A stretch of 49,661 nt of DNA, from positions 1 to 49,661 of IMG/VR virus record IMGVR_UViG_3300025849_000054, one strand, 5' to 3'. Shown piece after piece: positions 1 through 49,198 of the stretch. The notes under the pieces were generated by a model. The model ran no database searches and had not been told where the DNA came from. It worked only from the letters and a program-made list of their open reading frames with translations. The position numbers and the translations under genes were made by a program. Within the stretch, counting starts at the first letter, position 1. Each line of letters opens with the position of its first letter. The DNA comes from a virus.

Positions 1-1464
1 ATACATTTTTGCTTTTTCACCACTGCTGTTTTTTGCACGTTTGCGTAATGCTGTAACACTACCATTGCAACTTGCTCCACTACGTTTTACTCTACCTGGT
101 CTGCTTTTGCCTTTCTTTTTACCATCGTCAAAGTTTTCTACAATGCTTGGGTTTATTTCTTGTGCTGTGAATTGTTGCATTAGTTCAACAATGTCATCAT
201 CATGGTCCAATATTTTATAATCAGCATCAACTATTAGTGCTACATTATCATCATAACCGTGATTCTCACCACTGAGTACATGCATGCCATTACTTAATTC
301 TATGTGATCTTCTTGATTGACCCATTGATGAATAACTGACTCTACTTCTTCATGTGGAAGTTTACCTAACTTGAAACCAGGACTTAGTTTTGTTGGTGGG
401 TTTCCGGGTTGTAATTTATTTAGTGCCTTATCATATAATGCAGTAAATGACACTTGTTTATTAGACTTTCTATATGCATCCTTGGCCATTTGCAATGCTT
501 TGTTGTGTATTTCTGGCGTTGATGCCTCGTCGCTTAGATGTTCGACCATTGTATCACTAGTGGTATGGCTAAATTGTTTCATTAATAATTCAATAGGCAC
601 ATTTACTTTTATTGCATCTACTTTTTCTATGCCTAATAATCTAGCCGCATCATATCTATGATGACCATTAACCAAGTAATTGTTTTTATCTAGTATAAAA
701 GGCTTGTCTTTACCGTGAAAGTCTTCTGCAACTTTTTGTGCTAATCCTGGTACTCTATCTGTTTGAACTGGTTTAATATTTGTTACACTTATTTTGCCTT
801 TTTTATAAGGTATATCATTATCTATTAAATCTGGTTCTTTGACTTGCGGCATTTCATTTCTACTAAAATGCTTGTCGCTAATGTTTTTATCTAAATCTGC
901 TATTGCTGATTGTGTTAATTCAGATAATTTTATTACACCGCATCCTGCTCTATCACCTGCGTTGCCTGTTTTTAAACTTTCCTCATCGCCGCCTTTGCCT
1001 AAGTCGTCTTCGTCTTGGTGTACAACAACTGCTCTACCAACTATGCTTGTGGCACCTTGTAATTGAATTGTTTTGGATTTTATTTTAAATTCTGCTACAC
1101 CTTTGCTGTTGGCTTCTATATTTCCTAAGTCGCCGATATGACCATTATCTACATCGCCATGATCGACACCATGCGGATTATAATGACCGCCTGCACTATC
1201 GCATCCATCACTGAGATCGCCAAATTCGTGTATGTGAAATCCATGTAAGCCTTCTGTTAAGCCGCTTATAGTACCGCTTATAATTGTTGCTTTACCTGGC
1301 TTTTGTACAAAATTAATTATGCCTTTAGCATCGCCGTGTTCTAGTACTGCAACTGCTTTTATAGGCTTTTCTGCTTCTGATAATTGCCTTAGCCTTTCGC
1401 AACTGCATTCGGTTGCTTTTGTTCTTGGGCATTGTCCAGGTTTAGTTACTTCGTATAATCTCAT
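1..1464 (-). CDS. sodC: Cu/Zn superoxide dismutase - ParB-like fusion, 3' end beyond window
   Basis: Open frame of 488 codons from ATG at 1464 to the left edge; the stop lies outside. Residues about 40-180 are a Cu/Zn superoxide dismutase: HGFHIHEFGD (about 72), GGHYNPHGVDHG and GHIGDLGN supply the copper and zinc His and Asp ligands, and GNAGDRAGCG carries the active-site Arg. About residue 266 there is a ParB/sulfiredoxin-type motif, NGHHRYDAARLLG. The visible C-terminus is basic (VKRSGASCNGS...), a style I associate with marine phage virion proteins. The N-terminus (MRLYEV..., then a Cys-rich CPRTKATECSC) resembles phage internal protein leaders, not an export signal. ATGA overlap with the giant gene upstream places it last visible in the late operon. 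SOD identification is secure; the role of the ParB-like part is unknown. Confidence 0.88.
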   Translation of the reverse strand, partial: MRLYEVTKPGQCPRTKATECSCERLRQLSEAEKPIKAVAVLEHGDAKGIINFVQKPGKATIISGTISGLTEGLHGFHIHEFGDLSDGCDSAGGHYNPHGVDHGDVDNGHIGDLGNIEANSKGVAEFKIKSKTIQLQGATSIVGRAVVVHQDEDDLGKGGDEESLKTGNAGDRAGCGVIKLSELTQSAIADLDKNISDKHFSRNEMPQVKEPDLIDNDIPYKKGKISVTNIKPVQTDRVPGLAQKVAEDFHGKDKPFILDKNNYLVNGHHRYDAARLLGIEKVDAIKVNVPIELLMKQFSHTTSDTMVEHLSDEASTPEIHNKALQMAKDAYRKSNKQVSFTALYDKALNKLQPGNPPTKLSPGFKLGKLPHEEVESVIHQWVNQEDHIELSNGMHVLSGENHGYDDNVALIVDADYKILDHDDDIVELMQQFTAQEINPSIVENFDDGKKKGKSRPGRVKRSGASCNGSVTALRKRAKNSSGEKAKMY

Positions 1465-4400
1465 TTTAACACTGATACCTGTACTGCTGGACCATTTTGA
1501 CTGTCTGCCATATCTAAACTTGTAAATGCTAAATGCTCACTGTATTTTGGAAATTCTTCTGTTGTACAATTTACTACTTTATCATATCTCCAATTTAAAA
1601 ATATTAATCTATTGAATCCTTTTTTGTTTAACATGTATGCATAATTTTTAAATGACATTAATCCTACAAGTGTTAAGAACCTTGTCTTATCCATATTCAT
1701 AAATGAACTTGTTAATTCTGCTTCTTCTTCTGAGTCAATAACAAATTGATATGTGCTAACAATTAATTTTAAAAATTCAGCACCTACACCTTGTTTTACT
1801 TGTTCTAATTGTTGTGCTTGATCTAGTATATGAGCCTGACCCTGATTACGGCCTCCGCCAACTGCACCTTTTAAATTGTAAATTCTTAATTCTTCTGGAA
1901 TATCATGCTTTTCATAAAATGGTACTAGTTGTGATTTGACCTGTGCTAATCCACTAAACTTAAAGTCGTCAATACCGTTAACCATTCTACCGCCACCTGA
2001 CGATACCTCACCTTTAACTTCTATTTCTTCGCCATTAACTTTGATATCACCTACCGAAGCAAGTTCTACATTAGGTGACAGTAAACACAATCCAAGTTCA
2101 CCTGGCCCTCTGTTTGATCCAGATATATTAATTCTAAAGTCAAATAATTTTTCATAAAGATCATCTATAAATTCTTTAGATACTGCATCAGTTCCGACAA
2201 ACATGTCTGAAATTTTAAATACACCAGACTTGTTTAATAATTCTGTGTTTACATAATCTGCATGTCCGTAAGTTTCAACAAATGCATCTATTTCGTCAAA
2301 ATCATGATCTAGTTGTTCAAGTGATAAAACTAATTGTCTCATAATATTCTTATTAATTCTATGATCGTTTTCCTTACCAGTGTCATTATTTTTAAGTCTA
2401 TCTTCAATATCCAAATGGTCTGCAGACTCTTTATCAAGTTTTAACATTTTGTAAACTCGTCTAGCAAAATTTGGATTTTTTTCTAATGCAGTCATTATGC
2501 TGTTTAATCTGTCTTCTGTTGCATCCTCTTTGATATAACTTTCATTGAGATTAAGTTGTTTTACTTCTGCATCTGGTAATCTATTTTTTGCAAAATGCAT
2601 TAGGATGTCTCTACCACATGCTTCTGGCCCTTCTATGCTTTTTAATTGGCTAAATGCTGTCATCATCCTTGGTATTGGTAATGCTAAGTATGCCTGGAAT
2701 TGCATATCTAAATTACCAACTGGAAAATGTTTTGATAATAATTTTTTTAGTATAGCAAGTTTGTTATTGTTAGGCATGTTTTCTGTTAGTCTTTTAGTTC
2801 TTAATAATACATCTATGCCTAACAAACTTTCTGTTTTTGATTTGTCAAAGTATCCACGGTCGATCATTTTATTTAACATAGCCTGTGCCTTTACTTCGCC
2901 ATGTTGTGTTTTAAACTTGTTGTAAGTATTTTTTATATGCTGTTCTTTATTATATGATCCGGCAGGCTTTTTAACACTTTTACTTACTTTATTATATTTT
3001 CCTACTCCTAGTCTTTTCTGTTCTTTGTCTATAGTATCTAAATTTTTAAAATAACCCTCAACAATAGGTGTGTTCAATAATTCTAATTGTTTTTGTATTG
3101 GTAATTTTTCAAATCTTTCAAAAACACTAGGCATAATATTATTTACATAGGTACTGTCATCTAATTCTTTGCGGATATCTGCTTTAATTTTTTTTCTATC
3201 GTAATCTTTTGGTGATTTGTGTGCGCCAGCACCTGGCATGTTTTTGCTGTTCTTTGCTACTGGATTATTCTGCTTTGGCATTTTTGGTTTTTTTGCTTCA
3301 CCTATTTGTGTTTCGTCCATATGAGCCATAACATCATATATAATGTCACTGCTACTGCAACAATCAATTACTCTGCCACTAGCAAAGTGCCCAATTGGTT
3401 GTCCGCCTACTTCCATCTCTGGGTCTACACAATCTTCTACATCTAGGTCTTCTAGTGCTTGGTATATTGCATATTCTAAATCATCTTTGTTTGCAAATTG
3501 ATTTTCTCTTCCACTAAACTCATCTACTAATTTTTCAACACAACTGTTAGCAATAATACTTCTTTCTTCGCCTTCGTTAAACTTTTTCATATTAGTATTT
3601 ATTGTATTTTCATTTCTTGTAAATTTTTCTAATACATTTGATTCGTGTAATATACGCAACTGTTCTTGTAAAGGCAGTTTATCAAACTTGGTAAAGATAC
3701 TTTCTTGTGAAATTTCTTTTGCCGCATTTACGGCACCCATAAACGTATCAAAAGGTCCATTAAGTCTAAGTATTGCTAAAACCTCTTTCTTAAAGTTGGT
3801 GTCTTGCTGAGGATTGTTTAAAAATGCTACCAATTTATTTACTTCGCCTTTTGGTAAGTAATTCTGCATTCCCTGTTGCATCATAATATTAAACAATCTG
3901 TGTTTCCTGGCTTTATCGTAATCTGTATTTGTCCAATCTGAACTTCCGTATACTCCGCTTACATCATCGTCATCATTACCGTCTGCATCTTTTCTAAAAT
4001 AGTTACCACCACTCACATTGTAGTTGTCTCTGATATATTTTTCTGCATCTCTTACTGCGGCACCCCATCTTGCTAATCCAATTACATTTTTGCCGTTCTC
4101 GTCGGTTTCAGCAGGTCTCCAGTTGTGGTCGCCATCAAACTGTTGATATACTTTTCTCAATAAGTTTACACCCTGGTCATTTACGCCACGTTCTATTCCT
4201 AAATGGTCTGCTAAATTGCCCCAATCTGTTTCACCTGCTATGCCATTTGAGGAACCACCATTGTCGGGTTCAATACCAGCCGCTATGGCCATCTTGTCTA
4301 TGGGTTTGCCTAAATCATTTTGGTCTATGCCTACATCACCGTCAAGTACTTTTTTAAGTATATTATCTAATGCTACCTTAAAACTACCACCACTGCTTTG

Positions 4401-7400
4401 TTTGTTGGCCATTTCTTTAGCAACTACATCTTTCATTTTTGCTGGGTACTGTTCCCAATCAAATGCATCAAAACGTTTTTGCTCTGCCTCGTCATCCATA
4501 TTCTCCCAACTTATACCACTGCTTCTGTTTAGTGGTTCACCGCTTTTGGGATTTTGTGTTTCTTCATCTGGGAATAAATCGTCTTGTCCAGGTGCACCTT
4601 TTCTGCTGTCGCCTTTGTGAGTGACTTCAATACCGATATTTTTTAATTTGTGGTATACATCACCATCGCCTTGAATGAATGCTTCTTTGACATTTAAGTC
4701 CTTCCAACTATAACCATATTTGTTGTTGAATCTATTTACTATTTTTTTATAACCCTTTTTACGCCAAGTGTGATAATAGTTTTTATTTTTTTCAAATGTA
4801 TCTATAAGTTCTAAACCGTTTGTGGCATCTTCGGCATCACTCCAGTGACTGGAAGGTATAACATAAACTTTACTCTGGTTTACTTTGTCGTTAAAATGAT
4901 CTAAATTGCTATCTAAATATGCTTCTCTGTCGTCATAGTCTTCATCTGTGATAGTATCAAAAAAGTCTCGGTCTATATACACCCAACTGTGACTTGGTAT
5001 ATTAAGTTTTGCTTTTGCGTTGTCTCTGACATTCTTTTCAAAGTCTCTATTTCTTCTATCTAATGTATTTTTTGCTTGTATTTCTTGTTTAAGATTTACA
5101 AATCCTTCTTTCTGGAATATTTTATCAAATCCTGATAAGAATTTTTTTATTGCCGCAAATCTTTCTTTATGTAATTGTCTTAGAACAGCACCTTGCTCAG
5201 GCCCGTTGTTTTCTTTCCAAGCAAAATATCTATCCATATGCATAGATCCTACTACATAATCATCTATAAGAGCAGGCAAATTAAATGTTTGTTCATCTGC
5301 CTCTATTTCACTGTCTGCTTTTACAAGCCTGTCCATTACATCGTTCCAACGTTCTAAACTACTATGCGAAGCCAAGTTTGATTCTCCATCGGAGCCACGG
5401 TTGATTTGTGTGTATCCATTTTCATCTTCGGCCCAAAGATCTGGTCTAGGTTTTAAGCCTTCCAATAATTCTAATCCTAATTTGCTTACTTGTTTAGCAA
5501 TAGTTACAAATTTTTCTTTGTCTTCCCTTTCTAGATCTTTCAAATGATCTAACCTGTCTCTTAATCTCTGTGTGAGCCTCATCTGGAATACGTCTGAATA
5601 TTTGTCATCACTTTTAATATTAACATGATGATCTCTGCTTGTTGGATGTTTGTAACCTTGATATGGTTCTAAGAATTTTAATAATTCTTGTGCTGAATCT
5701 TTTGTGGTAATTCTATTGCTTTTTAATAACTCGTTTCTTACATTCCATCCACGGCCTTTCAGTTTAGCAACAAAACTATTTTCTTGTCTTTCATGAGATA
5801 ATTCTCTTAATGTGTTTTCGACATCTATTTTTTTGTTTGCAGGGGTTAAAACAACCAGTAAGTCTGCAAGTTTATCTAATTTGACATTATCTTTGCTATC
5901 GTCTGATTGATAGAACTGCCACATTTTACTGGCAATGCGGTCTACATCTTGCGGAGATAAATATTCTGGGTTTTTAATTATGTCTTGCTTGAATAAAGTG
6001 TTTATTCCTTTTTGTAATATTAATACTTTGTCTTTGTCAGAACCTTCAATGTTATGATTCTCCATACTTGAAAAAACCAGTGTTTCCATGCTATCACTGT
6101 TTAGTTGTAATTCTTTGGCAAACTTTCTAAACGACGCAATGTTTTTAGCAGTAACAGGTGCTCTGTTATTACCGTCTGCTATGTCTTTTGCTAATAATGT
6201 TACTGCTGATCCAAATCTATCTTGTGCTTTGTCTAATTCGCCTGCCGCTCTCTTGCTTGGTGACATACTGTTAGGCTGTACATATCCTTTGATTGTTTCT
6301 TCTTCTATTTCTACTTTAGTACCAGTACCTTTTTCGAAATCTTTTATTTCCTGCTTCCATATTTTATCTGCATCTGGACTACTTAATTTTTCATAGTTTT
6401 GTAAATACTCAACACTGGCACTTAGAAATTTAATTACATCAAAGTAATCTTTTTTGCCTACAATGCTCTTGGCGGCATCTATTACTTCGTGATTAACTAC
6501 TTCTAAATTTTTTAATTTTTTAGGATCTATTTCCTGTGACTTACGCAATAATCTAAATACTGCTTTAACATATTCTGGTCTAAAAGCATCTTTACTATAT
6601 CCTGCTTTCATTACAGTAGCATATCTCACACATGCTTTAACAACTTTATCATACATTGTGTTATAGTCTACACCGCCGGCAATTCTAAACTCTATAAGGT
6701 TATTTCCTGAGTCTTTATCAGTCTCGCCTTTAAAATTTATACTGTTAAACTTACCAGGGTCTATGCCTTTAGCAAGTTCTTTCTCAAATGCTTCAAAACT
6801 TTTTGCATCACCACGTTTCATGCCTTCTGCATATTTTAATACATTTTGATATTGACTTTTTGTGTAACTGTTACGCAATCTACCAAACTCTGCAAGTAAG
6901 TATTCATCACCTAATAGCAATGCCATCTTTAATTTGTTTGGTTCTGATGCCTCATCTCCCCAAAATTCATCATCGTCTGTTTTTACTAAATCTCTTTTTT
7001 CACCTTGCCAACTCATAGTAACATGTAGTCCTGTAGAGTTGTTTGTGCCAAAGTTTTTTTCACTCCAGTCAAATAAACTTTTCATTTCTGTAAGCATTTT
7101 TCTAGGTGAATCAAATACTGGCGAAATTAATTCTGCACCTGCTCCTTCATCGGCTTCTATACTGCTATCAGTTTCTACTGACCAAGCAGTTGTGGTATTA
7201 GTGGAGTCATACTCACCTATTTCCGGATAGTCTGTAAATTTACTATTATCTTTTATCCAGTTGTATAACTCATCTGCAACACCTTCAACATTGCCTTCAC
7301 TGCTACTATTATACTCATAACCATAATCATCAAGGAAACTGCTCATGTAACTGTAGTTGTCGTATATCCAATCTTCTACACTATAATCATCTCTTGCGGC

Positions 7401-8366
7401 TTCTCTGGCCTCATCGTCTAGATCACCGTCTGCAACGTCTTTTTTTAACCAAGCCAAATACTCATCTTCGTATTCTTCTTCTACATATTCTCTGACCCAG
7501 TTCATATAGTCCCAACCATCTTCCTCACGGTTTTCGTATTCTTTTGGATCGTTTTCTTCAAAATCTTTTTTGTATATTTCGATTGCTTCTGAACTTGGTC
7601 CTGCCCCACTATCTATAAAGTCGTTTAGATAGTCTTCATCTTCTCTGACCTCATTTACTTTATCTTCTATTATGTCATCTAAATATTCGTCTTGTCCTTT
7701 AGTGTACAACCAGTCTTCAAAGTTTTCCCAAACTTGATCTGGCATATCACCGTATTCGTATTCGATATCAGAAATGCTCATGTTGTCTATATCATCACTG
7801 GCTCTTCTGCCGTCTACACTATAAAAAAATGTTTCTGCTTCAAAGCCACATTTTACAGGAGCATCCAAGGCCTCTATGGCTATTTCTTTTTTGTTGAAAT
7901 TTATTTCGAATAGTTTTGGATCCGCTTCTTTGAGTAATTTAGATCTTTTTTTGAATTTTGTTAAATTTTTTTTACCAGTTAATTTTTTTAATATTTTTTT
8001 AGCAAGTGTGCTTTCGTCAATATCCATGTCATTGGCTTTTTTAAGTATATTTGCTAACTGATTTCTCAATGCAGGAGTCTGCATTGCTTTTGTAAATTGT
8101 ACATCAATTGATAATTTTGATTGTAATTGTGCTGGTGTTGGCTTTTCGCCTTGTATGGTCTTGTTTATGCCTTTGGCGGCCATTTTAGGATTTATAGGCT
8201 TACCTAACTTGGCTCCTAGTGCCTTAAAACCTTTTGCTACTTCCTTTTCTTGGTCAGGTGTGAATGGCTCCATTTCCATTTCGTCGTCATTTTTATTTGA
8301 CTGCTTCGCGTTGGAATTTGGATCTTGTATTCCTTTATTATATTCGTACAAATCGTTTATTTTCAT
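1461..8366 (-). CDS. Giant virion-associated protein with amidoligase-like domain
   Basis: 2301 residues starting MKINDLYEYNKG, a possible capsid-targeting leader (LYE). Residues about 170-590 match the amidoligase_2 (COOH-NH2 ligase) pattern: GFEAE at the start, SSIEADEGAGAELISP, GLHVTMSW and NLIEFRIAGG. A very acidic stretch (Asp/Glu/Tyr-rich, about 185-370) is embedded in it. Near the C-terminus, GPGE (about 2087) followed by GDIKVNGEEIEVKGE (about 2110) is the E...D...ExK spacing of PD-(D/E)xK nucleases. Two copies of an FxxFxKLPxQxQLxxL motif lie at about 1555 and 1745. The middle is otherwise unrecognised. It overlaps its upstream neighbour and the SOD gene by ATGA, so all are translated together from the late operon. 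Probably an internal or ejected protein; enzymatic activity is inferred only from motifs. Confidence 0.8.
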   Translation of the reverse strand: MKINDLYEYNKGIQDPNSNAKQSNKNDDEMEMEPFTPDQEKEVAKGFKALGAKLGKPINPKMAAKGINKTIQGEKPTPAQLQSKLSIDVQFTKAMQTPALRNQLANILKKANDMDIDESTLAKKILKKLTGKKNLTKFKKRSKLLKEADPKLFEINFNKKEIAIEALDAPVKCGFEAETFFYSVDGRRASDDIDNMSISDIEYEYGDMPDQVWENFEDWLYTKGQDEYLDDIIEDKVNEVREDEDYLNDFIDSGAGPSSEAIEIYKKDFEENDPKEYENREEDGWDYMNWVREYVEEEYEDEYLAWLKKDVADGDLDDEAREAARDDYSVEDWIYDNYSYMSSFLDDYGYEYNSSSEGNVEGVADELYNWIKDNSKFTDYPEIGEYDSTNTTTAWSVETDSSIEADEGAGAELISPVFDSPRKMLTEMKSLFDWSEKNFGTNNSTGLHVTMSWQGEKRDLVKTDDDEFWGDEASEPNKLKMALLLGDEYLLAEFGRLRNSYTKSQYQNVLKYAEGMKRGDAKSFEAFEKELAKGIDPGKFNSINFKGETDKDSGNNLIEFRIAGGVDYNTMYDKVVKACVRYATVMKAGYSKDAFRPEYVKAVFRLLRKSQEIDPKKLKNLEVVNHEVIDAAKSIVGKKDYFDVIKFLSASVEYLQNYEKLSSPDADKIWKQEIKDFEKGTGTKVEIEEETIKGYVQPNSMSPSKRAAGELDKAQDRFGSAVTLLAKDIADGNNRAPVTAKNIASFRKFAKELQLNSDSMETLVFSSMENHNIEGSDKDKVLILQKGINTLFKQDIIKNPEYLSPQDVDRIASKMWQFYQSDDSKDNVKLDKLADLLVVLTPANKKIDVENTLRELSHERQENSFVAKLKGRGWNVRNELLKSNRITTKDSAQELLKFLEPYQGYKHPTSRDHHVNIKSDDKYSDVFQMRLTQRLRDRLDHLKDLEREDKEKFVTIAKQVSKLGLELLEGLKPRPDLWAEDENGYTQINRGSDGESNLASHSSLERWNDVMDRLVKADSEIEADEQTFNLPALIDDYVVGSMHMDRYFAWKENNGPEQGAVLRQLHKERFAAIKKFLSGFDKIFQKEGFVNLKQEIQAKNTLDRRNRDFEKNVRDNAKAKLNIPSHSWVYIDRDFFDTITDEDYDDREAYLDSNLDHFNDKVNQSKVYVIPSSHWSDAEDATNGLELIDTFEKNKNYYHTWRKKGYKKIVNRFNNKYGYSWKDLNVKEAFIQGDGDVYHKLKNIGIEVTHKGDSRKGAPGQDDLFPDEETQNPKSGEPLNRSSGISWENMDDEAEQKRFDAFDWEQYPAKMKDVVAKEMANKQSSGGSFKVALDNILKKVLDGDVGIDQNDLGKPIDKMAIAAGIEPDNGGSSNGIAGETDWGNLADHLGIERGVNDQGVNLLRKVYQQFDGDHNWRPAETDENGKNVIGLARWGAAVRDAEKYIRDNYNVSGGNYFRKDADGNDDDDVSGVYGSSDWTNTDYDKARKHRLFNIMMQQGMQNYLPKGEVNKLVAFLNNPQQDTNFKKEVLAILRLNGPFDTFMGAVNAAKEISQESIFTKFDKLPLQEQLRILHESNVLEKFTRNENTINTNMKKFNEGEERSIIANSCVEKLVDEFSGRENQFANKDDLEYAIYQALEDLDVEDCVDPEMEVGGQPIGHFASGRVIDCCSSSDIIYDVMAHMDETQIGEAKKPKMPKQNNPVAKNSKNMPGAGAHKSPKDYDRKKIKADIRKELDDSTYVNNIMPSVFERFEKLPIQKQLELLNTPIVEGYFKNLDTIDKEQKRLGVGKYNKVSKSVKKPAGSYNKEQHIKNTYNKFKTQHGEVKAQAMLNKMIDRGYFDKSKTESLLGIDVLLRTKRLTENMPNNNKLAILKKLLSKHFPVGNLDMQFQAYLALPIPRMMTAFSQLKSIEGPEACGRDILMHFAKNRLPDAEVKQLNLNESYIKEDATEDRLNSIMTALEKNPNFARRVYKMLKLDKESADHLDIEDRLKNNDTGKENDHRINKNIMRQLVLSLEQLDHDFDEIDAFVETYGHADYVNTELLNKSGVFKISDMFVGTDAVSKEFIDDLYEKLFDFRINISGSNRGPGELGLCLLSPNVELASVGDIKVNGEEIEVKGEVSSGGGRMVNGIDDFKFSGLAQVKSQLVPFYEKHDIPEELRIYNLKGAVGGGRNQGQAHILDQAQQLEQVKQGVGAEFLKLIVSTYQFVIDSEEEAELTSSFMNMDKTRFLTLVGLMSFKNYAYMLNKKGFNRLIFLNWRYDKVVNCTTEEFPKYSEHLAFTSLDMADSQNGPAVQVSVLK

Positions 8367-8641
8367 CTTCTTCTATTGAGCCTTGCAACTCTTTTGCTAA
8401 TTGGACTTCTTCTTTTAGTACGAGCGGCTTTCCTTGCCATCCTCTTACCAACTCTTGCTCTTGTCTTTTTGAGCGTCATACGTTTTTTTAGGTTGATAGG
8501 TTTCGAGCATTGGCCTACATTAGACACCATTCTGCCTTTGCGTGGACCACTGGTGCATCTAACCTTGCGAACAATTTTACTGCCTCGCTTGGCCCAGACC
8601 ATTTTGGCCTCCATTACTCCTTCTACTTCAACTATTTTCAT
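8363..8641 (-). CDS. Arg/Lys-rich small virion-type protein
   Basis: 92 residues, extremely basic, ending in an Arg/Lys-rich half (KKTRARVGKRMARKAARTKRR). It begins MKIVEVEGVMEAK, again a short leader with I-x-E. The centre VRKVRCTSGPRKGRMVSNVGQCSKP has two Cys about 16 residues apart. I recall similar small basic proteins in marine T4-like phages, without known function. Such charge suggests DNA binding inside the capsid, by analogy with T4 internal proteins; this is inference. Its stop overlaps the giant gene start by ATGA and it starts just after the stop of the membrane protein gene upstream. Confidence 0.75.
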   Translation of the reverse strand: MKIVEVEGVMEAKMVWAKRGSKIVRKVRCTSGPRKGRMVSNVGQCSKPINLKKRMTLKKTRARVGKRMARKAARTKRRSPISKRVARLNRRR

Positions 8642-9775: not shown

Positions 9776-10363
9776 TTACTTTCCAGACAGTAAATCTTTG
9801 AATTTATACCTTAAATTAGCCATTGTATCACTTGGATTTCTCATATAAGATGCTACTGTATTTCTTACTTTTTTAATACCTTTTTTAACACCAAAATTTG
9901 GTAGTATTGTATCGTATTCTGCATCGGGATCAAATGCAGGGTTACCATAGTATTTTTGATGTTTTAATTTTCTACCATCGCTACCAGTTCTAACACCATC
10001 GCTGTCGCCGTCTTTAGTGTTTAATCCTCTACGTGATGTACCTTTTAGTGCGTCTGCTCTTGCTTTGCTTCTTAACTCAGCATCACTAGGACCTTCTTTT
10101 TTACGAGGCTCTTCCCTTTTATTAATTTGAGATTGTTGTGACTTGTTTCTTACATCAACATCAGTACTACCAACATTAGGTACATTTTTTAAATCTCCTA
10201 CCTCTACATCTGTTCCAATTGACTGCCCCATATCGCGACCATATGTAGATGTATCAGTACCAACACCCTGTATTCTTCGCTGAGTATGGATATCTCGCAT
10301 CTGTTTCATTGCATCTTTTTGTGCTTTACTGATTTCTTTGATTATTACTTCGTCGATTCTCAT
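9776..10363 (-). CDS. Hypothetical internal-type protein with leader peptide
   Basis: 195 residues, strongly basic and low-complexity, starting MRIDEVIIKEISKAQ. The leader ends in I-x-E, the T4 prohead protease type of site. The centre has a KDGDSDGVRTGSDG segment that looks like a calcium-binding DxDxDG loop, and the C-terminus is Lys/Arg-rich. No family recognised. A late-type box CATAAATA (10369-10376) ends six bases before the ATG, so transcription is predicted to start on the ATG itself; there is no Shine-Dalgarno. Confidence 0.7.
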   Translation of the reverse strand: MRIDEVIIKEISKAQKDAMKQMRDIHTQRRIQGVGTDTSTYGRDMGQSIGTDVEVGDLKNVPNVGSTDVDVRNKSQQSQINKREEPRKKEGPSDAELRSKARADALKGTSRRGLNTKDGDSDGVRTGSDGRKLKHQKYYGNPAFDPDAEYDTILPNFGVKKGIKKVRNTVASYMRNPSDTMANLRYKFKDLLSGK

Positions 10364-10376: not shown

Positions 10377-11139
10377 ACCTTTTTCTACTTTGCCAGTATG
10401 CGGCAATGCCTGCCAACCCAGCCGCGGATTTAGGTCCTAACCTTCCGCCTGTTATTCTTGGGCCAAATTCTGCACCAACGTATGCCGATGCACCTGCTAC
10501 TGCTAAACGTTTTAGTGTTGTTTGATCGGTTGCTTTGTCTAATTCTGTGTTAGTTGCATTAACTAATTTATAATTTCTTTCTTTAGCAAATTTATTTAAT
10601 GTTTTATACAGGTCACTTCTTACTGCTTTGGCTCGCATTATGTGTAACATTTTTGTGACTGCTAATTGCTTTTGCCTATATTTTAATCTGCTCCAATCAG
10701 ATACCAATCTTCTGACATTTTGTATGACCATGTCATTAATTTTAAGTTGTCTTTGCAATCTCAAGAAGTAAATTGAATTTGGAATTTGTCCTTTTGCTAT
10801 GCTGGTCATAAACTGATGCATCAGTTGTTCGTTAAATTTATAATCTTTTTTATACTTAGAATTAATTGTGTATGCAATCATGTAATGATCGTTAGCACCT
10901 AATCTACTTGCACGATATTTTCCGTGTCTTACATTTGCATTTGCATATTGTATTGCAAATGGTCTATATTTTTTATCTTGTGCAAACACATACACCAACA
11001 TGGTTGTTACCATTAGTAATTCTGCCATATCATCTTTGGTATATGGCTTGAATCCATCAGTTGTTCTGTATAATCTACTTTCCTGTAGATCGCCTAAAAA
11101 TTGATATTGTGCTTGTTTTTGTTCTTTAGGTGTTTCCAT
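10372..11139 (-). CDS. Hypothetical late protein
   Basis: 255 residues, METPKEQKQAQYQFLGDLQES..., helical and basic in the middle (repeated Leu/Arg-rich segments at about 120-190). The C-terminus, about 205-245, is Gly/Ala-rich and mildly hydrophobic (VAGASAYVGAEFGPRITGG), perhaps membrane-interacting. Not recognised; I recall similar unnamed proteins in marine T4-like phages. Start overlaps the stop of the nucleotidyltransferase-like gene (TAATG at 11139), so the two are coupled in the 13457-10372 late operon. Confidence 0.65.
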   Translation of the reverse strand: METPKEQKQAQYQFLGDLQESRLYRTTDGFKPYTKDDMAELLMVTTMLVYVFAQDKKYRPFAIQYANANVRHGKYRASRLGANDHYMIAYTINSKYKKDYKFNEQLMHQFMTSIAKGQIPNSIYFLRLQRQLKINDMVIQNVRRLVSDWSRLKYRQKQLAVTKMLHIMRAKAVRSDLYKTLNKFAKERNYKLVNATNTELDKATDQTTLKRLAVAGASAYVGAEFGPRITGGRLGPKSAAGLAGIAAYWQSRKRS

Positions 11140-12407
11140 TATGCGCCTGGTCTCCCTGTGCCAAAGTTTTTAACACTAAAGTCTAATCTGTCGACTAATT
11201 TAATTGCGTTTCCAATATGATCAACAGCAACAAAGCCTTCTTCACCTGTGACATCATAGTCGCCTTCTTGGTTTTGTACAAACGTGTCTATTTGTTTTAT
11301 GTTTGCTAATTTTTTAATTATCATTTCTTTTGCTTTGATTAAATCTAAATACACAACGTATGCTTTTTCTATTTCTTCTTGATTGCTTTCTAAAAATTTA
11401 ATGCCGTCTATCATCAATTTTGTTTTTCTTACTTTACCGTCATCGCTTTTTAGTTTTTCAACTGCTGATTTCAGTGTGCCTTTGTACTCTGCAATAAATC
11501 TTTGAGCAAATACTTTTGGATCTTGTTCAAAGCCTACTAATTCTCTAATAATTTTATTTACACTTGCCTTAATTCTTATTCTCAAGTCATCTCCAAATTC
11601 ATTATTTTTAAGAAAGTCTAAATCTGTAACTGCTTTTAAGTTTTGATCTGCATTGTTAATGAGTTCGGCCATCTCTCGTGATTCATCTTCAGTGAAAGTT
11701 ACTTGCCCTGAGTAGTCTCTTATGATTGCATCTCTGTGCCAAACATCTGGATGACTGCCTAAACTACTTGCATCAAACCCAAACTTTGCTGACATGTCTG
11801 CTAATTCGCCGCCTCCAACATATTCTGTGTGAAACACTATGCCTATTTTAGAACGTAAAATATCTTTTGCAAGATTACTGTTTTTTGGAATTGCATATAT
11901 AATTGTATTTGGTTTAAATACTATAAATTCTTCGCCTTTGATATTTGCATCTGATATGCTGTCGTCTGTGTATAGTAAATCTCCTTGTACAATTTTTCCT
12001 TTAAAATTTAATTTTTGTAAATGCATAAATGCACTAATTAATTTTTCTTGTAAGCCTTCTGCTTCGTGATTTGCTTTGATGTCTTGTATGCTTTTGTTTA
12101 CTAACGGATTTCTTTTGTTGAATACACTTTTAGTACCTACAAAAAATTTACCGTCTGCTGGATCAGTGCCTACAAATACTGCTGGAGCACCGTCCCATTT
12201 TGTTGTTAAGTTGAATTTGGTTTTTGCACTACCCTTCAGCATCTCATGAAAACTGTAAAGATATTGTATTGCTTGTTTACCACCAGGTAACCCGTCATTA
12301 AAAATTAAATCTTCTAAATGTTCAAGGTGAGTGTTTTTGCTTTCATCTAGTCTGTGATGAATTACACATTCAGTTAAGTACCCTTTAGTAAGATCAACTG
12401 CTCTCAT
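11139..12407 (-). CDS. KxDG nucleotidyltransferase-superfamily protein (ligase-like)
   Basis: 422 residues. Begins MRAVDLTKGYLTE, a leader ending in L-x-E. Residues about 67-75, TTKWDGAPAVF, are motif I (KxDG) of the covalent nucleotidyltransferase superfamily of DNA/RNA ligases and capping enzymes. Later motifs fit the fold: a Gly/Lys strand FFVGTKS, GKIVQGDLLY (about 137-146) and GEEFIVFKPNTIIYAI (about 158-173). The C-terminal half is helical and unrecognised. I cannot tell ligase from another AMP/GMP transferase. It lies in a late virion-type operon, coupled by TAATG on both sides, not in the replication region, which argues against a role in normal DNA replication. Confidence 0.7.
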   Translation of the reverse strand: MRAVDLTKGYLTECVIHHRLDESKNTHLEHLEDLIFNDGLPGGKQAIQYLYSFHEMLKGSAKTKFNLTTKWDGAPAVFVGTDPADGKFFVGTKSVFNKRNPLVNKSIQDIKANHEAEGLQEKLISAFMHLQKLNFKGKIVQGDLLYTDDSISDANIKGEEFIVFKPNTIIYAIPKNSNLAKDILRSKIGIVFHTEYVGGGELADMSAKFGFDASSLGSHPDVWHRDAIIRDYSGQVTFTEDESREMAELINNADQNLKAVTDLDFLKNNEFGDDLRIRIKASVNKIIRELVGFEQDPKVFAQRFIAEYKGTLKSAVEKLKSDDGKVRKTKLMIDGIKFLESNQEEIEKAYVVYLDLIKAKEMIIKKLANIKQIDTFVQNQEGDYDVTGEEGFVAVDHIGNAIKLVDRLDFSVKNFGTGRPGA

Positions 12408-13201
12408 TAATAACTCGTGTCTATTTTTTCTATTCCTGAATCTGCAGGATCTAGTGTAGTTAATTTTTGCTTTTGTTTGCCTGATAGTTTTTGTGGTACA
12501 AGTTTAACACCGTTAATAGAAATAATTTTTTTACTAGGAATACCTGTTGTAGTTGATTGTTTTGGATTTTCTGGATTAAAGAATCCTTTTATTTGTACAT
12601 CTGGTACTCCGTCGCCGTCTGAATCTGCTGTAAATTGTATAAATTCACCAGTTCTTAATACATTATCACTAGTGGTCCATTGTATTTTGTCACCGGGTTT
12701 TGGAGGTTGGACGCCATACACTTGTTCCCATGTAGTGCCCTGTTGTTTATTAGTTCTTTTATTTTTAATAATATTGTCTAGTTTACCACCTGCTCTGGCT
12801 CCGAGTGTTGCCATTCCTTTTACAAACCAGTTATCATCTTTATATCTAGCGGCAACTCCTGCTCCCGCTTTGGCTTGATTAGTAGGATCCCACCATGCTT
12901 TAACATCATCCCATCTTTTTAAGTTTAATAGATTTTTTATTCTTGCTGATGTATTTTTTTGAAACGCTCTTCTAGTAAAAGAAGGATCTGCCGGGATAAA
13001 ATCTTGTGCCCTGTCATCGTATACATAGAATATATTTTGTGCATTATCTATATATCCTTTATACTCGTAACCATCAACTTCAAATTCTACATGAGAATAT
13101 TTAGGATCACTAACAATGCTTTTCCATTTTTTAGCAGGTGCTTTTTTTTGATAGTCTGATAAACTATCATCTTCGCGTAATATGACTTCGTTAATCTTCA
13201 T
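12407..13201 (-). CDS. Hypothetical internal-type protein with leader peptide
   Basis: 264 residues from the ATG at 13201 (MKINEVILREDDSLSDYQ). A longer frame opens at 13246, but the internal start gives the same leader style as its neighbours and overlaps the upstream gene by only 11 bases, so I prefer it. The leader ends in LRE. Residues about 35-75 hold a Tyr-rich beta segment; about 190-205 TADSDGDGVPDVQI looks like a calcium-binding DxDxDG loop. No family recognised. TAATG overlap with the nucleotidyltransferase-like gene. Confidence 0.7.
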   Translation of the reverse strand: MKINEVILREDDSLSDYQKKAPAKKWKSIVSDPKYSHVEFEVDGYEYKGYIDNAQNIFYVYDDRAQDFIPADPSFTRRAFQKNTSARIKNLLNLKRWDDVKAWWDPTNQAKAGAGVAARYKDDNWFVKGMATLGARAGGKLDNIIKNKRTNKQQGTTWEQVYGVQPPKPGDKIQWTTSDNVLRTGEFIQFTADSDGDGVPDVQIKGFFNPENPKQSTTTGIPSKKIISINGVKLVPQKLSGKQKQKLTTLDPADSGIEKIDTSY

Positions 13202-19792: not shown

Positions 19793-20256
19793 TTAAATAT
19801 TTCCTTTATTTCTTTTTCATCAACACCACTTGTTTCTGCTAAGTCTTTTAACTCTTCTTTGGTGTTAATACTTAGCAACAATTCTACTTCATCGTTTTTT
19901 GCTAACGGAAATATTTGTCTAATTAATTCTTCGACTTTATCTTTTTTACGTTTTGCTTTGGGTACCTTAACAAATGGATGAAATTGACTTTTGCCTACAC
20001 CTGCTAGACACATTAGTTTCCATTGCAATTCTGGGTGTTTACTTACGTCACTCCAGTTTGTATTCATAAACTCATTAATCATTACTAGATAATGTCCAGC
20101 AAATTTGCCTTGTACACTACTTGCATATCGCTGAGTCATCCACAAATTCATACTCTTGCGTTGCTCGTCTGTAAGATTAATATAATAGTTGTAGTCCTTA
20201 CGGTCTACAGCCGCCATGATATCTTTAATTTGCAGTAATGGTTTCTTTGCCATCAT
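19789..20256 (-). CDS. 62: Probable clamp loader small subunit, gp62-like
   Basis: 155 residues. The central part VMINEFMNTNWSDVSKHPELQWKLMCLAG, the basic linker FVKVPKAKRKKDKVEELIRQIFPLAKNDEVELLLSI and helical C-terminus follow the layout of T4-like gp62 (187 in T4), a poorly conserved subunit that pairs with gp44 to load the gp45 clamp. No gp44 or gp45 lies in this window, so the call rests on the sequence pattern alone. Two adjacent ATGs overlap the apt stop (ATGATG); GAAGGTG is a plausible Shine-Dalgarno. Confidence 0.5.
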   Translation of the reverse strand: MMAKKPLLQIKDIMAAVDRKDYNYYINLTDEQRKSMNLWMTQRYASSVQGKFAGHYLVMINEFMNTNWSDVSKHPELQWKLMCLAGVGKSQFHPFVKVPKAKRKKDKVEELIRQIFPLAKNDEVELLLSINTKEELKDLAETSGVDEKEIKEIFK

Positions 20257-20801
20257 TCACCTTCATATTCTATAAGTGCCCCGGCATTATATCCTTTCTC
20301 AGTTATTTTAGCAAATCCACCTAAGTCTGTCAAGTCAATTACTGCCAATACTGTTATTTGATTTTTTGGTACATTGAAATTTTCATGTATTAAATCTGCA
20401 CAGGCAATTGCTGTACCGCCTGTTGCGATTAAGTCGTCTATGATTACAACTTTATCTTCTGGAACTATATGTGTATTTTTTTGTATTTCTAAACTAGTGC
20501 TACCATATTCTAAATCAAAATCTCTCTTGTGTGTTTCGTTAGGTAGTTTACCAGGCTTTCTTGCCATTATAAAAGGTAAGTCTAGGTCTCTGGCAATTGG
20601 TGCTCCAAACACAAAACCTCTGCTTTCAACACCCACAATCTTAGTTGCCTTAAATGAAAGACTGGTTAAGTCTACAAGTGCTTTATTAAATGCTAATGGA
20701 TTTTCTATTAGGCTGGTTATATCTCTAAATTGTATTCCTGGTATTGGAAAGTCAGGTACAGTTCTTATGGCATTTTTTAGGTCTTGATAAAATTCTTTCA
20801 T
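20253..20801 (-). CDS. apt: Adenine phosphoribosyltransferase
   Basis: 182 residues, the usual length. Residues about 15-28 FPIPGIQFRDITSL, about 58-88 VESRGFVFGAPIARDLDLPFIMARKPGKLP and the PRPP loop VVIIDDLIATGGTA (about 119-132) are typical of Apt. Converts adenine and PRPP to AMP. A salvage enzyme directly downstream of metK (TAATG overlap): S-adenosylmethionine use releases adenine-containing products, so a methylation-recycling link is plausible but inferred. Confidence 0.95.
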   Translation of the reverse strand: MKEFYQDLKNAIRTVPDFPIPGIQFRDITSLIENPLAFNKALVDLTSLSFKATKIVGVESRGFVFGAPIARDLDLPFIMARKPGKLPNETHKRDFDLEYGSTSLEIQKNTHIVPEDKVVIIDDLIATGGTAIACADLIHENFNVPKNQITVLAVIDLTDLGGFAKITEKGYNAGALIEYEGE

Positions 20802-21892
20802 TAAAATAAATCAATGTGTTCCCATGGAAGTTCATCTTTACCAAAATGCCCATATAATGTTGTAGTGGTTAAGTCTAACTTAAATAAGTCAAATTTGTCA
20901 ATAATGCCTTTTGGTGTTAAGTCAACATTTTTGCTAATCCATTCTACTAAGTCTGGTCTAACTTTGCCGTCTGCATATACATAAACACTAGTAGGCTCTA
21001 CTACACCGATTGCATAACTTAGTTGTACTGTACAGTTATCTGCTTTACCAAATGCAACAATATTCTTTGCTAAGTAACGTGCCATGTATGCCGCACTTCT
21101 ATCAACTTTGGTACAGTCTTTACCACTAAATGCTCCGCCACCGTGTGGTGCATAACCACCGTATGTATCAACAATAATTTTTCTGCCTGTTAATCCTGTG
21201 TCTCCATCTGGTCCACCAATTACAAATCTGCCTGTTGGATTTATTAAAAATTCAGTTTCACTTAAATCCCAATCTGTTATTTCATCTCTAATAATTTGCT
21301 CAATTCTATCACGTACCATTTGAATACTTACATCATCGCTGTGTTGCGTACTACATACAATTTTAGTAATACCAGTTGGTTTGTTTACATTGTCATACGT
21401 CATAGTTACCTGACTTTTACTATCAGGACCTAACCAAGTTTCATTGCCTTCTCTTTCTGCTTGTAGTCTTTTTAAAATTTTATGACTGTAGTAAATAGCA
21501 CTTGGCATATAATTAGGAGTTTCATTGCAGGCGTACCCAAACATAAGTCCTTGGTCACCAGCACCAAAGTCATCTGTGCCTAATGCAATGTCAGGTGATT
21601 GACCATGTAGTTCGTTATATACTTTTAATTTTTCCCAATGGAAGCCATCTTGTTCATAACCAATATCTTGTACAACTGCTCTAACAATGTCCTCAATGAC
21701 ATCCTTGTCAAACTTGTCACTTTTGTATTCACCTGCAAGTGTAACCATGTTAGTAGTTACCAATGTTTCTACAGCCGCTCTGTGATTTTCTTTGCCGTCT
21801 ATTAAATATGTTGCTACTGCATCCGAAATCAAATCTGCGATTTTATCTGGATGTCCTATGCTAACACTTTCGCTTGTAAATTCATAAGTCAT
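20801..21892 (-). CDS. metK: S-adenosylmethionine synthetase
   Basis: 363 residues against about 384 in bacterial MetK. N-terminal ESVSIGHPDKIADLISDA (ATP/methionine site), GAGDQGLMFGYA (signature 1, about 109-120) and GGGAFSGKDCTKVDRS (signature 2, about 249-264), flanked by the conserved GGPDGDTGLTGRKIIVDTYGG. All three domains seem complete, so an active enzyme is expected. Makes SAM from ATP and methionine, here perhaps to supply phage DNA methylation or other SAM use. Coupled by TAATG to mazG upstream and to apt downstream. Confidence 0.97.
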   Translation of the reverse strand: MTYEFTSESVSIGHPDKIADLISDAVATYLIDGKENHRAAVETLVTTNMVTLAGEYKSDKFDKDVIEDIVRAVVQDIGYEQDGFHWEKLKVYNELHGQSPDIALGTDDFGAGDQGLMFGYACNETPNYMPSAIYYSHKILKRLQAEREGNETWLGPDSKSQVTMTYDNVNKPTGITKIVCSTQHSDDVSIQMVRDRIEQIIRDEITDWDLSETEFLINPTGRFVIGGPDGDTGLTGRKIIVDTYGGYAPHGGGAFSGKDCTKVDRSAAYMARYLAKNIVAFGKADNCTVQLSYAIGVVEPTSVYVYADGKVRPDLVEWISKNVDLTPKGIIDKFDLFKLDLTTTTLYGHFGKDELPWEHIDLF

Positions 21893-22185
21893 TATTGCTC
21901 CTCTTTTATAAAGATACCATCAACCATTTTTCCTTTACGGTCTTTGATATCTTCGTATGCTACTTCTAAACATTCTTCTAATGTTAATTTGTTTCTGGCA
22001 AGTATGTTAATCATTACAACTAACATATCACCGATGTCGTCCCTGATGTCATTGCCCTTACACACATTATCACTGAGTTCTCCGAGTTCTTGTAATAATT
22101 TAAGAACTTGATCTTTGTCAGTGGCTCCGTCGATAAGGTTTCTATCGTAATGCCATTGTTCAACTTTTTTGACTAATTCGTCCAT
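21892..22185 (-). CDS. mazG: MazG nucleotide pyrophosphohydrolase
   Basis: 97 residues. LLQELGELSDNVCKG (ExxE-type helix, about 29-43) and IRDDIGDMLVVMINILARN (ExxD helix, about 47-65) define the MazG fold. Similar to the marine phage MazG group, which has been linked to dNTP cleaning or to altering host nutrient signalling. Second MazG-type protein in this operon, different in sequence from the one at 18202. TAATG at both ends. Confidence 0.88.
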   Translation of the reverse strand: MDELVKKVEQWHYDRNLIDGATDKDQVLKLLQELGELSDNVCKGNDIRDDIGDMLVVMINILARNKLTLEECLEVAYEDIKDRKGKMVDGIFIKEEQ

Positions 22186-22961
22186 TATAGTTTGCCTTCT
22201 TCTCTCATTTGTTCACGTATTTTAGTAGCACTGATATCGTGTGTAGCATCGTCAAAAACTTCTTGCTCAATCTTATACCCAACATCTCTACCATACGTTA
22301 TGTTTAACAAGTTTGGTACAACTTGTATTTTTACTTTACCAGCAAATTTGTATAAACTTTGTTGTAAGTTTTCTACAACTTCATATGCTGGAAAAGGATT
22401 CTTGTCATCTGTTGGCATATCTCTAACCATTAAAAACACTTGATTGTGTTTAGCCAATGCTCTATCGAACAATGCTTGGTGCCCAGGATGCCAAGGCTGA
22501 AATCTACCAAGCATTTGTGTTGTGGGTGCCTGGTTATCCCAAATAAATTTTTGACCAATTTCATAAGCAATTATTTTAGCATCTACATCACCACGTTGTT
22601 CTAGTACGTTGTAATCTGTTGCTACTGGTCTTTGAAATACTTTGTTAGTATCTTCAAATCTGCCTTCTTCTATTGTGTCTACAAAAATTTCATAGTCAGC
22701 AAAGAATTTATTCCTAGCATTTTCAAAAGGTGCTACAAAGTCTGCTATGGCAATCTTGCCTTCTAATTCAGCATTTACACATAAATCAATCATTCGTTGA
22801 TTTTGTCTTAATCTACCTTCTTCAGAAAAGTCCCAGTCGTCTGCTTCTTCTCTGACTTTATCTGCGTTGAACCAGGCTACTTTATCGCCTAAGTATTCAA
22901 CTAGTCGTTCTGCTAAATATGTCTTACCACTTCCTGGTAATCCAAATATTAATACTCTCAT
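22185..22961 (-). CDS. APS kinase-like / nucleotidyltransferase fusion
   Basis: 258 residues, two domains. Residues 1-140: P-loop GLPGSGKT (7-14) followed by FNADKVREEADDWDFSEEGR and IAIADFVAPFENAR, which align with the GDNVR, GFSxEDR and FISPYRxxR motifs of adenylylsulfate kinase (APS to PAPS). Residues about 145-258: LGRFQPWHPGH and ISATKIR are the HxGH and ISxTxxR motifs of NMNAT/cytidylyltransferase-type enzymes. PAPS production would serve the sulfotransferase-like gene at 15878; an NAD- or sugar-related function is an alternative. Starts directly after the upstream stop (GGAGAATAAATG). Confidence 0.82.
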   Translation of the reverse strand: MRVLIFGLPGSGKTYLAERLVEYLGDKVAWFNADKVREEADDWDFSEEGRLRQNQRMIDLCVNAELEGKIAIADFVAPFENARNKFFADYEIFVDTIEEGRFEDTNKVFQRPVATDYNVLEQRGDVDAKIIAYEIGQKFIWDNQAPTTQMLGRFQPWHPGHQALFDRALAKHNQVFLMVRDMPTDDKNPFPAYEVVENLQQSLYKFAGKVKIQVVPNLLNITYGRDVGYKIEQEVFDDATHDISATKIREQMREEGKL

Positions 22962-48950: not shown

Positions 48951-49198
48951 TCTTTTGGATATCCTTCGTACCATTCTTTGATAGTATTGACTCTTACATC
49001 ACGCCATGCTTTTTTATCTAATGCATACATAATAATTGTATCACTAGTAGTATCGTATTTTTTTATATCAATACTTTGTTTATGTATTTCTTGATTAAGA
49101 GTACACGGCATAGTTCGAATTTCTTTTGTGTCTATCTTTTCAAATACTACTGTTACTACTCCTTGCCTAAGAGCATCTATAATTTTGTTTGAATCCAT
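48947..49198 (-). CDS. Small SH3-like (DUF2693-type) protein
   Basis: 83 residues from ATG at 49198. GVVTVVFEKIDTKEIRTMPCTLN (about 14-36) and IIMYALDKKAWRDVRVNTIKEW (about 55-76) are the two halves of a small beta-barrel phage protein family that I associate with T4-like phages (DUF2693-like, SH3 fold). Function unknown. Coupled by TGATG to the reductase upstream and ATGA to the cyclase downstream, linking it to the three-gene end cluster. Confidence 0.7.
   Translation of the reverse strand: MDSNKIIDALRQGVVTVVFEKIDTKEIRTMPCTLNQEIHKQSIDIKKYDTTSDTIIMYALDKKAWRDVRVNTIKEWYEGYPKE

Follow-up and report, generated by a model that had tools for sequence, protein, structure and literature searches.

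The term polyvalent proteins has been used for phage proteins of great length in which unrelated enzyme domains are linked and which are predicted to be packaged and injected, DdrB and Dar of phage P1 being among the examples (Iyer et al. 2017, PMC5512222); their processing by zincin-like metallopeptidases is proposed in the abstract of that paper. The internal proteins of phage T4 (IPI-III) and Alt instead carry a capsid-targeting sequence that is cut by the protease gp21, which cleaves after L/I-x-E and for which about ten residues are enough for targeting (PMC9026906), and these internal proteins are described as diverse defence proteins with only the leader in common (PMC3012670). Here we analyse a giant protein of 2,301 amino acids (aa) encoded in the IMG/VR virus record IMGVR_UViG_3300025849_000054, whose whole stretch of 49,661 nucleotides (49.7 kilobases, kb) is referred to below as the window. 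The giant appears to be a string of enzymes of a marine T4-like bacterial virus, combining an amide-bond-forming enzyme with a probable nuclease. Our preferred reading, to which we assign a probability of roughly 0.7, is that it is a capsid-packaged multi-enzyme 'polyvalent' polyprotein that undergoes processing in the prohead and enters the host along with the DNA.

As in polyvalent proteins, at least two unrelated biochemistries are joined in one chain (the amidoligase and the C-terminal domain, with a superoxide dismutase (SOD) in addition in relatives L084 and L086), domain composition differs between relatives, and the phage context, a group of leader-bearing genes, fits packaging and injection. 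ParB-like domains are found in both systems; that of our locus lies in the adjacent gene and may or may not belong to the DdrB-like ParB family. In contrast to the polyvalent proteins of PMC5512222, the predicted signals of the giant are T4-type leader targeting and prohead-protease sites. The likeness to T4 lies in the short leader ending in [L/I]xE, present in ipII and ipIII, and in an otherwise unrelated set of proteins with the leader alone in common (PMC3012670, PMC9026906). However, the open reading frames (ORFs) of the T4 internal proteins are small (95-193 aa), whereas the giant would be a multi-enzyme cargo of about 2,300 aa in which [L/I]xE is conserved at internal borders as well. 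An earlier note on this DNA had held that the coupling of an amidoligase to a possible nuclease in a virion protein would be new. Large multi-enzyme injected proteins are already known (PMC5512222), and the part of that claim that stands is that neither amidoligases nor superoxide dismutases are named in the main text of that paper. Our literature search on this giant-protein family found no paper.

The giant protein and its amidoligase domain

The 2,301-residue ORF previously delineated at 1461-8366 was borne out: it is uninterrupted, and the giant is intact in relatives at 57-100% identity in 15 loci. It lies on the minus strand (8366 to 1461), which the earlier note had not stated. Its features are as follows.

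1461..8366, minus: the 2,301-aa giant ORF, without interruption, overlapping by ATGA both the basic-protein gene upstream and the SOD gene downstream
8343..8366, minus: leader MKINDLYE, aa 1-8, capsid-targeting-like, with a putative prohead-protease site after LYE (from [L/I]xE counts and comparison with T4)
7926..8366, minus: variable pro-region, aa 1-147, basic before its end, swapped as a unit between relatives and ending LKE147 (DNA identity, alignment)
7905..7913, minus: second putative cut site, LFE (aa 152-154; 48/48 sequences), bordering the amidoligase domain on its N-terminal side
6447..7904, minus: Amidoligase_2-like domain of predicted glutamine-synthetase fold, aa 155-640 (homology, hhalign, model, invariant residues)
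7833..7847, minus: motif 1, GFEAE, aa 174-178 (E176 and E178 invariant in the alignment)
7230..7793, minus: insert of aa 192-379, acidic and all-helical, separating motif 1 from motif 2 (composition and model)
7116..7139, minus: motif 2, GAELISPV, aa 410-417 (E412 invariant in the alignment)
7008..7034, minus: motif 3, TGLHVTMSW, aa 445-453 (H448 invariant in the alignment)
6672..6698, minus: motif 4, LIEFRIAGG, aa 557-565 (E559 and R561 invariant in the alignment)
4377..6446, minus: mostly helical conserved middle, aa 641-1330 (alignment and model of aa 140-1330)
3687..4376, minus: conserved module, aa 1331-1560 (NLADHLGIERGVNDQG ... MMQQGMQNYL ... LVAFLNN; family alignment)
3657..3698, minus: linker motif copy 1 (FTKFDKLPLQEQL, from aa 1557; sequence)
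3084..3125, minus: linker motif copy 2 (FERFEKLPIQKQL, from aa 1748; sequence)
2541..2702, minus: module QFQAYLALPIPRM...LNE, aa 1889-1942, with LNE1942 as putative cut site before the C-terminal domain (18/19)
1464..2540, minus: C-terminal PD-(D/E)xK-like domain, aa 1943-2301 (alignment), replaced by other domains in L070/L073/L091 and in L082/L096
2097..2099, minus: E2090 of GPGE, invariant in 20 (alignment)
2046..2048, minus: D2107 of GD, invariant in 20 (alignment)
2013..2021, minus: E2116-x-K2118, invariant in 20 (alignment)

The amidoligase motifs that had been read from the sequence (GFEAE, GAELISP at 410-416, TGLHVTM at 445-451 and LIEFRIAGG) are present, and E176, E178, E412, H448, E559 and R561 are identical in 44 of 44 aligned relatives. 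We take this ExE, E, H, ExR pattern to represent the metal- and nucleotide-binding (adenosine triphosphate, ATP) residues expected in the glutamine-synthetase superfamily. Scanned directly against Pfam and PHROG, the 2,301-aa protein gave nothing useful, and the domain of the window has no direct match to Pfam PF12224, a single-record search included, its sequence being too divergent. The sole match among 50,697 phage records was one region of the Agrobacterium jumbo phage Atu_ph07, which encodes a stand-alone protein (P0002, AUZ94978). This homologue matches Pfam Amidoligase_2 at 5.2e-7, above the curated cut-off, and is linked to the window domain by tblastn (E 2e-9) and hhalign (8.8e-15). 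Queried with the amidoligase-region alignment, IMG/VR yielded at least 150 related stretches, 80 of which were kept.

An AlphaFold2 model of aa 140-1330 (1,191 aa; 44 sequences) reached a mean predicted local distance difference test score (pLDDT) of 83. When this model was searched against the PDB with Foldseek, glutamine synthetases took ranks 1-10, although the best E was only 0.015 (probability 0.97); all 50 VIA-align rows were glutamine synthetases or close relatives (best Z 10.3 over 194 residues, root mean square deviation 3.9), and the best match in BFVD was an entry named 'Amidoligase enzyme' from an uncultured Caudovirales phage (4e-15). Sequence-profile searches of the PDB with this domain gave nothing convincing. 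The homologue's Pfam match, hhalign, Foldseek/VIA-align and BFVD together support the amidoligase assignment at the level of family and fold, and, judged from sequence and model, the domain is likely to be an active enzyme.

The giant shares with the Amidoligase_2 family (PF12224; Atu_ph07 AUZ94978 and other phage amidoligases) the glutamine-synthetase fold and the signatures GFExE, GxEL(I/V)SP, TG(L/F)H(V/I) and (I/L)EFR; unlike in that family, its domain sits in a 2,301-aa chain and contains a 188-residue acidic helical insert. The acidic insert had been noticed before, and its composition (63 D/E against 14 K/R in the 188 residues of aa 192-379) agrees with this; in the model it is a conserved and confidently predicted helical subdomain rather than a disordered stretch. 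Similarly, both copies of the duplicated motif FxxFxKLPxQxQL are present (aa 1557 and 1748), but the duplication is no general trait: because most relatives have one clear copy, within a length-variable linker, we regard it as local variation. As a candidate protease site the motif was rejected, [L/I]xE occurring in some copies only (LPLQEQL but LPIQKQL).

Leader, module borders and neighbouring genes

As read from its sequence, the N-terminus of the giant is a T4-type capsid-targeting leader, common to neighbouring genes and newly recognised here. [L/I]xE occurs within the first 24 residues in 46 of 47 relatives, the exception having FLE, against 17% of internal 21-mers, and the relatives have two main leaders, MKFxDVKTLEHLLKE... 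or MKINDLYE..., each ending in [L/I]xE. In the T4 record, ipII and ipIII have the N-terminus MKTYQEFIAE, with which two leaders of the window share length and form. The following genes accompany the giant.

1..1464 (runs off the window), minus: next gene, Cu/Zn superoxide dismutase plus ParB-like domain, with LSE(30)/AE directly before the SOD (Pfam, alignment)
8363..8641, minus: 92-aa very basic protein, leader-like N-terminus MKIVEVEGVME/AK, ATGA-coupled to the giant (sequence)
9776..10363, minus: 195-aa protein with leader MRIDEVIIKE (sequence)
11139..12407, minus: DUF6267 / phrog_455 protein, leader-like MRAVDLTKGYLTE (family match and sequence)
12407..13201, minus: protein with leader MKINEVILRE, its start being an internal ATG (sequence)

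In each of three records, genes with a leader are enriched near the giant (Fisher p 0.0005, 0.010 and 0.002), in regions picked after the pattern was seen and with a regular expression that also catches false positives elsewhere. The 250-kb relative G005 encodes an S77 prohead protease (3e-27) and a gp23 with LSE/AA at 39-41. The earlier note had called the giant a virion protein and had given no evidence; this is now made likely by the leader, by the neighbours that bear one too, by the S77 protease encoded in G005 and by the pattern of [L/I]xE sites. The window itself contains T4-like genes for terminase, tail tube, head closure and sheath stabilizer, and DnaB-, primase-, UvsX- and UvsW-like proteins were recognised by eye only. 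The T4 late promoter TATAAATA occurs in the window below the chance count, and the related CATAAATA, found before 9776-10363 and before the terminase gene, was too weak for use. Among the neighbours, the 92-aa protein (8363-8641, minus strand) looks like a DNA-condensing internal protein. The DUF6267/phrog_455 protein (11139-12407) has a ligase-like KWDG motif, and its relatives occur in 467 phage records, most of them of cyanophages.

Along the alignment, no more than six columns hold [L/I]xE in 70% or more of the sequences, and four of these coincide with module borders. The six are the leader (42/47), E147 (43/48), E154 (48/48), E427, E559 and E1942 (18/19); E427 and the catalytic-type E559 lie inside the amidoligase fold, and E1942 immediately precedes the exchangeable domain. 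When the count was repeated with ten other residues in third position, K140 and R142 were the sole columns to fall in border windows, each within the basic stretch that leads up to E147; because the border windows were chosen after the E columns had been seen, this comparison is descriptive and no test. A border of exchange also lies close to E147. From about aa 146 on, the window and L002 are identical at 99.1% of 7,931 bases, and their first 145 aa are 28% identical; in several other pairs, the N-terminal part is swapped against a near-identical body, or the reverse, at the same border. Misassembly might account for the mosaic in L002 alone, but pairs from different contigs share the border, and one misassembly is therefore insufficient. 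In comparisons of the window with L030 or L016, the C-terminal domain is 96-97% identical and the middle only 64-65%.

Although these borders are consistent with proteolytic processing, the giant might also be packaged and injected and then act uncut, with the border [L/I]xE, the leader excepted, being coincidental or structural. This would have a precedent in the N4 virion RNA polymerase, which at about 3,500 residues is ejected and works as one chain (PMC12633501), and it would suit a short motif of which one instance, LFE154, touches a folded domain. We consider it unlikely, though still credible, given that the conserved [L/I]xE columns are few and mostly at borders and that the same site separates SOD from nuclease in the fused relatives. 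It is more doubtful that the giant stays unpackaged, as an enzyme made late inside the infected cell whose amidoligase alters host cell-wall peptides or receptors against competing phages. Phage amidoligases are usually stand-alone proteins, and a proposal of this kind for the phiEco32 amidoligase is cited in PMC11318856; the leader, however, is conserved and common to unrelated neighbours, and the closest isolate homologue, that of Atu_ph07, lies near portal, prohead-core and capsid genes, within a range of genes that its authors describe as a virion-protein cluster.

The exchangeable C-terminal domain and the superoxide dismutase companion

The E...D...ExK motif that had been suspected near the end of the giant is present as E2090, D2107, E2116 and K2118. 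Across 20 divergent C-terminal domain sequences, most about 20% identical to that of the window, the only invariant residues are G, G, E2090, L, G, D2107, E2116, K2118 and R. Because this signature is invariant at such low identity, the sequence makes a PD-(D/E)xK nuclease the likely identity of the domain. In the model, which is weak (mean pLDDT 61), E2090 is placed in a helix, and D2107 and ExK are placed in or beside successive strands, an arrangement that fits the PD-(D/E)xK core. The domain thus resembles the superfamily in its invariant E (helix), D and ExK (successive strands) across divergent relatives, but differs in matching no named family or solved fold. Fold searches of the C-terminal 971-aa model with Foldseek and VIA-align gave no PD-(D/E)xK match (best VIA Z 5.0, to a helical stretch), PDB sequence-profile searches with the domain gave nothing convincing, and hmmscan of the 20 divergent domains gave weak scattered matches only, so that no named Pfam or PHROG family could be assigned. 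As the model is weak, the absent fold match is not evidence against PD-(D/E)xK. What supports the proposed nuclease-like C-terminus is its invariant signature and its predicted strand and helix order, with nothing from Foldseek and VIA-align, from Pfam or from PDB profiles; of the two domains for which a fold match had been looked to, the amidoligase has one and the C-terminal domain has none and is unconfirmed.

In L070, L073 and L091 the body of the giant is joined to a different C-terminal domain, and likewise, in another order, in L082 and L096. The L082-type domain matches phrog_3560 (6e-21); with its DVFLTH...MSVKVG motifs, this phrog_3560-type domain (L082, 11481-13817; L096, 2420-8338) could be another nuclease type. 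The third kind of C-terminal domain (L070, 11511-14102; L073, 8247-10889; L091, 9558-12107) has a GAEVGISSKGGKG motif and no family match. In L107 (7296-8443) and L108 (7275-8786), the PD-(D/E)xK-like domain is found in a separate 503-aa protein with the leader-like N-terminus MRINEVNIFE. Being exchanged in relatives and found outside the giant as well, the C-terminal domain is a mobile unit, and its exchange suggests an arms race.

The SOD domain of the companion gene matches Pfam PF00080 at 2.3e-46 in the window and at 2.8e-44 in L008, and an SOD was present in all eight giant-bearing records searched. L084 (2,472 aa; Pfam 1.6e-44) and L086 (2,404 aa) carry it as a fusion with the giant, and in 17 of 18 SOD homologues, both fused ones included, the SOD domain is immediately preceded by [L/I]xE. 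SOD and ParB-like domains adjoin or are fused to the giant at L084 7518-14936, L086 7527-14741 and L070 14106-17455. A tblastn search for the SOD/ParB-like companion in isolated phages returned three weak matches only.

These observations also bear on a structural role, in which the giant would be an internal assembly protein, its amidoligase fold cross-linking or modifying head or scaffold and its C-terminal domain serving as a DNA-binding packing module. A late-type neighbourhood with a very basic partner protein, a long helical middle and the lack of a nuclease fold match would all suit such a role, but the C-terminal domain is swapped for others, which would not be expected of an essential structural part. 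The invariant residues, moreover, match a catalytic site, and no structural role is obvious for the fused SOD, so that we regard a structural function as improbable. That the ORF is an artefact, a misassembly fusion or read-through of unrelated genes in what is a metagenomic contig, is already refuted by independent relatives, the same architecture recurring at 57-100% identity in many contigs from different samples.

Other genes were seen in passing. At 47085-48974 (minus strand) the window encodes a 629-aa protein that by eye resembles a membrane sensor joined to a nucleotide cyclase (MFADIVGFTPISEKY), matches phrog_35576 and is unusual in a phage. Genes resembling, by eye, adenine phosphoribosyltransferase, S-adenosylmethionine synthetase and a nucleotidyltransferase/kinase stand in a row at 20253-22961 (minus strand). 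In the 250-kb relative, a run of proteins with similar CxxPWxH...CC motifs (L126 1-20000; G005 about 162-177 kb) looks to be of radical-SAM/SPASM type.

Proposed processing and its meaning

Several points weigh against a packaged and processed polyprotein. The nuclease domain is without a fold or profile match, with the weak model described above. [L/I]xE is a short motif, the sequences of one family are not independent, and the conserved LFE154, at the edge of a folded domain, could be structural. The S77 prohead protease was found in one record only of eight, G005; the other seven records searched, the window included, gave no match and may be incomplete or fragments. To our knowledge, no activity is known for this branch of amidoligases.

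For packaging, cleavage, ejection and substrates we infer the following course. The leader MKINDLYE and the basic pro-region would carry the giant into the prohead core, like a T4 capsid-targeting sequence. A gp21/S77-type protease would then cleave after the conserved [L/I]xE, removing leader and pro-region (E8, E147/E154), separating the C-terminal domain at E1942 and freeing the SOD of its own pro-region. Together with the genome, the mature pieces would leave the head, to act in the cytoplasm of the host. There, the amidoligase, depending on ATP and metal, may form an amide bond on a substrate of either host or phage, and the PD-(D/E)xK-like domain, assigned by motif only, may cleave DNA, most likely that of the host or of a rival. 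The companion SOD would remove superoxide, and the ParB-like domain may be a nuclease or nucleoside triphosphatase. Since T4 heads can hold a packaged nuclease that digests DNA only upon calcium addition (PMC3012670), packing a nuclease together with DNA is possible.

A fuller version of the polyprotein reading is tentative, and we would rate it at slightly under even odds. It holds that a prohead-protease-processed chain, or a translationally coupled operon, brings together leader, amidoligase, exchangeable nuclease and sometimes SOD and ParB-like domains for co-injection, with the protease doubling as the processor of this kit and the cargo being swapped at its sites.

Under the polyprotein reading, an amide-bond-forming enzyme and a superoxide dismutase would count among the activities likely to be injected. 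In T4-like marine phages, packed and injected proteins could be traced from sequence by the leader and the [L/I]xE borders, with mature ends predicted to the residue, and these features suggest that a capsid-maturation protease may also release enzymes.

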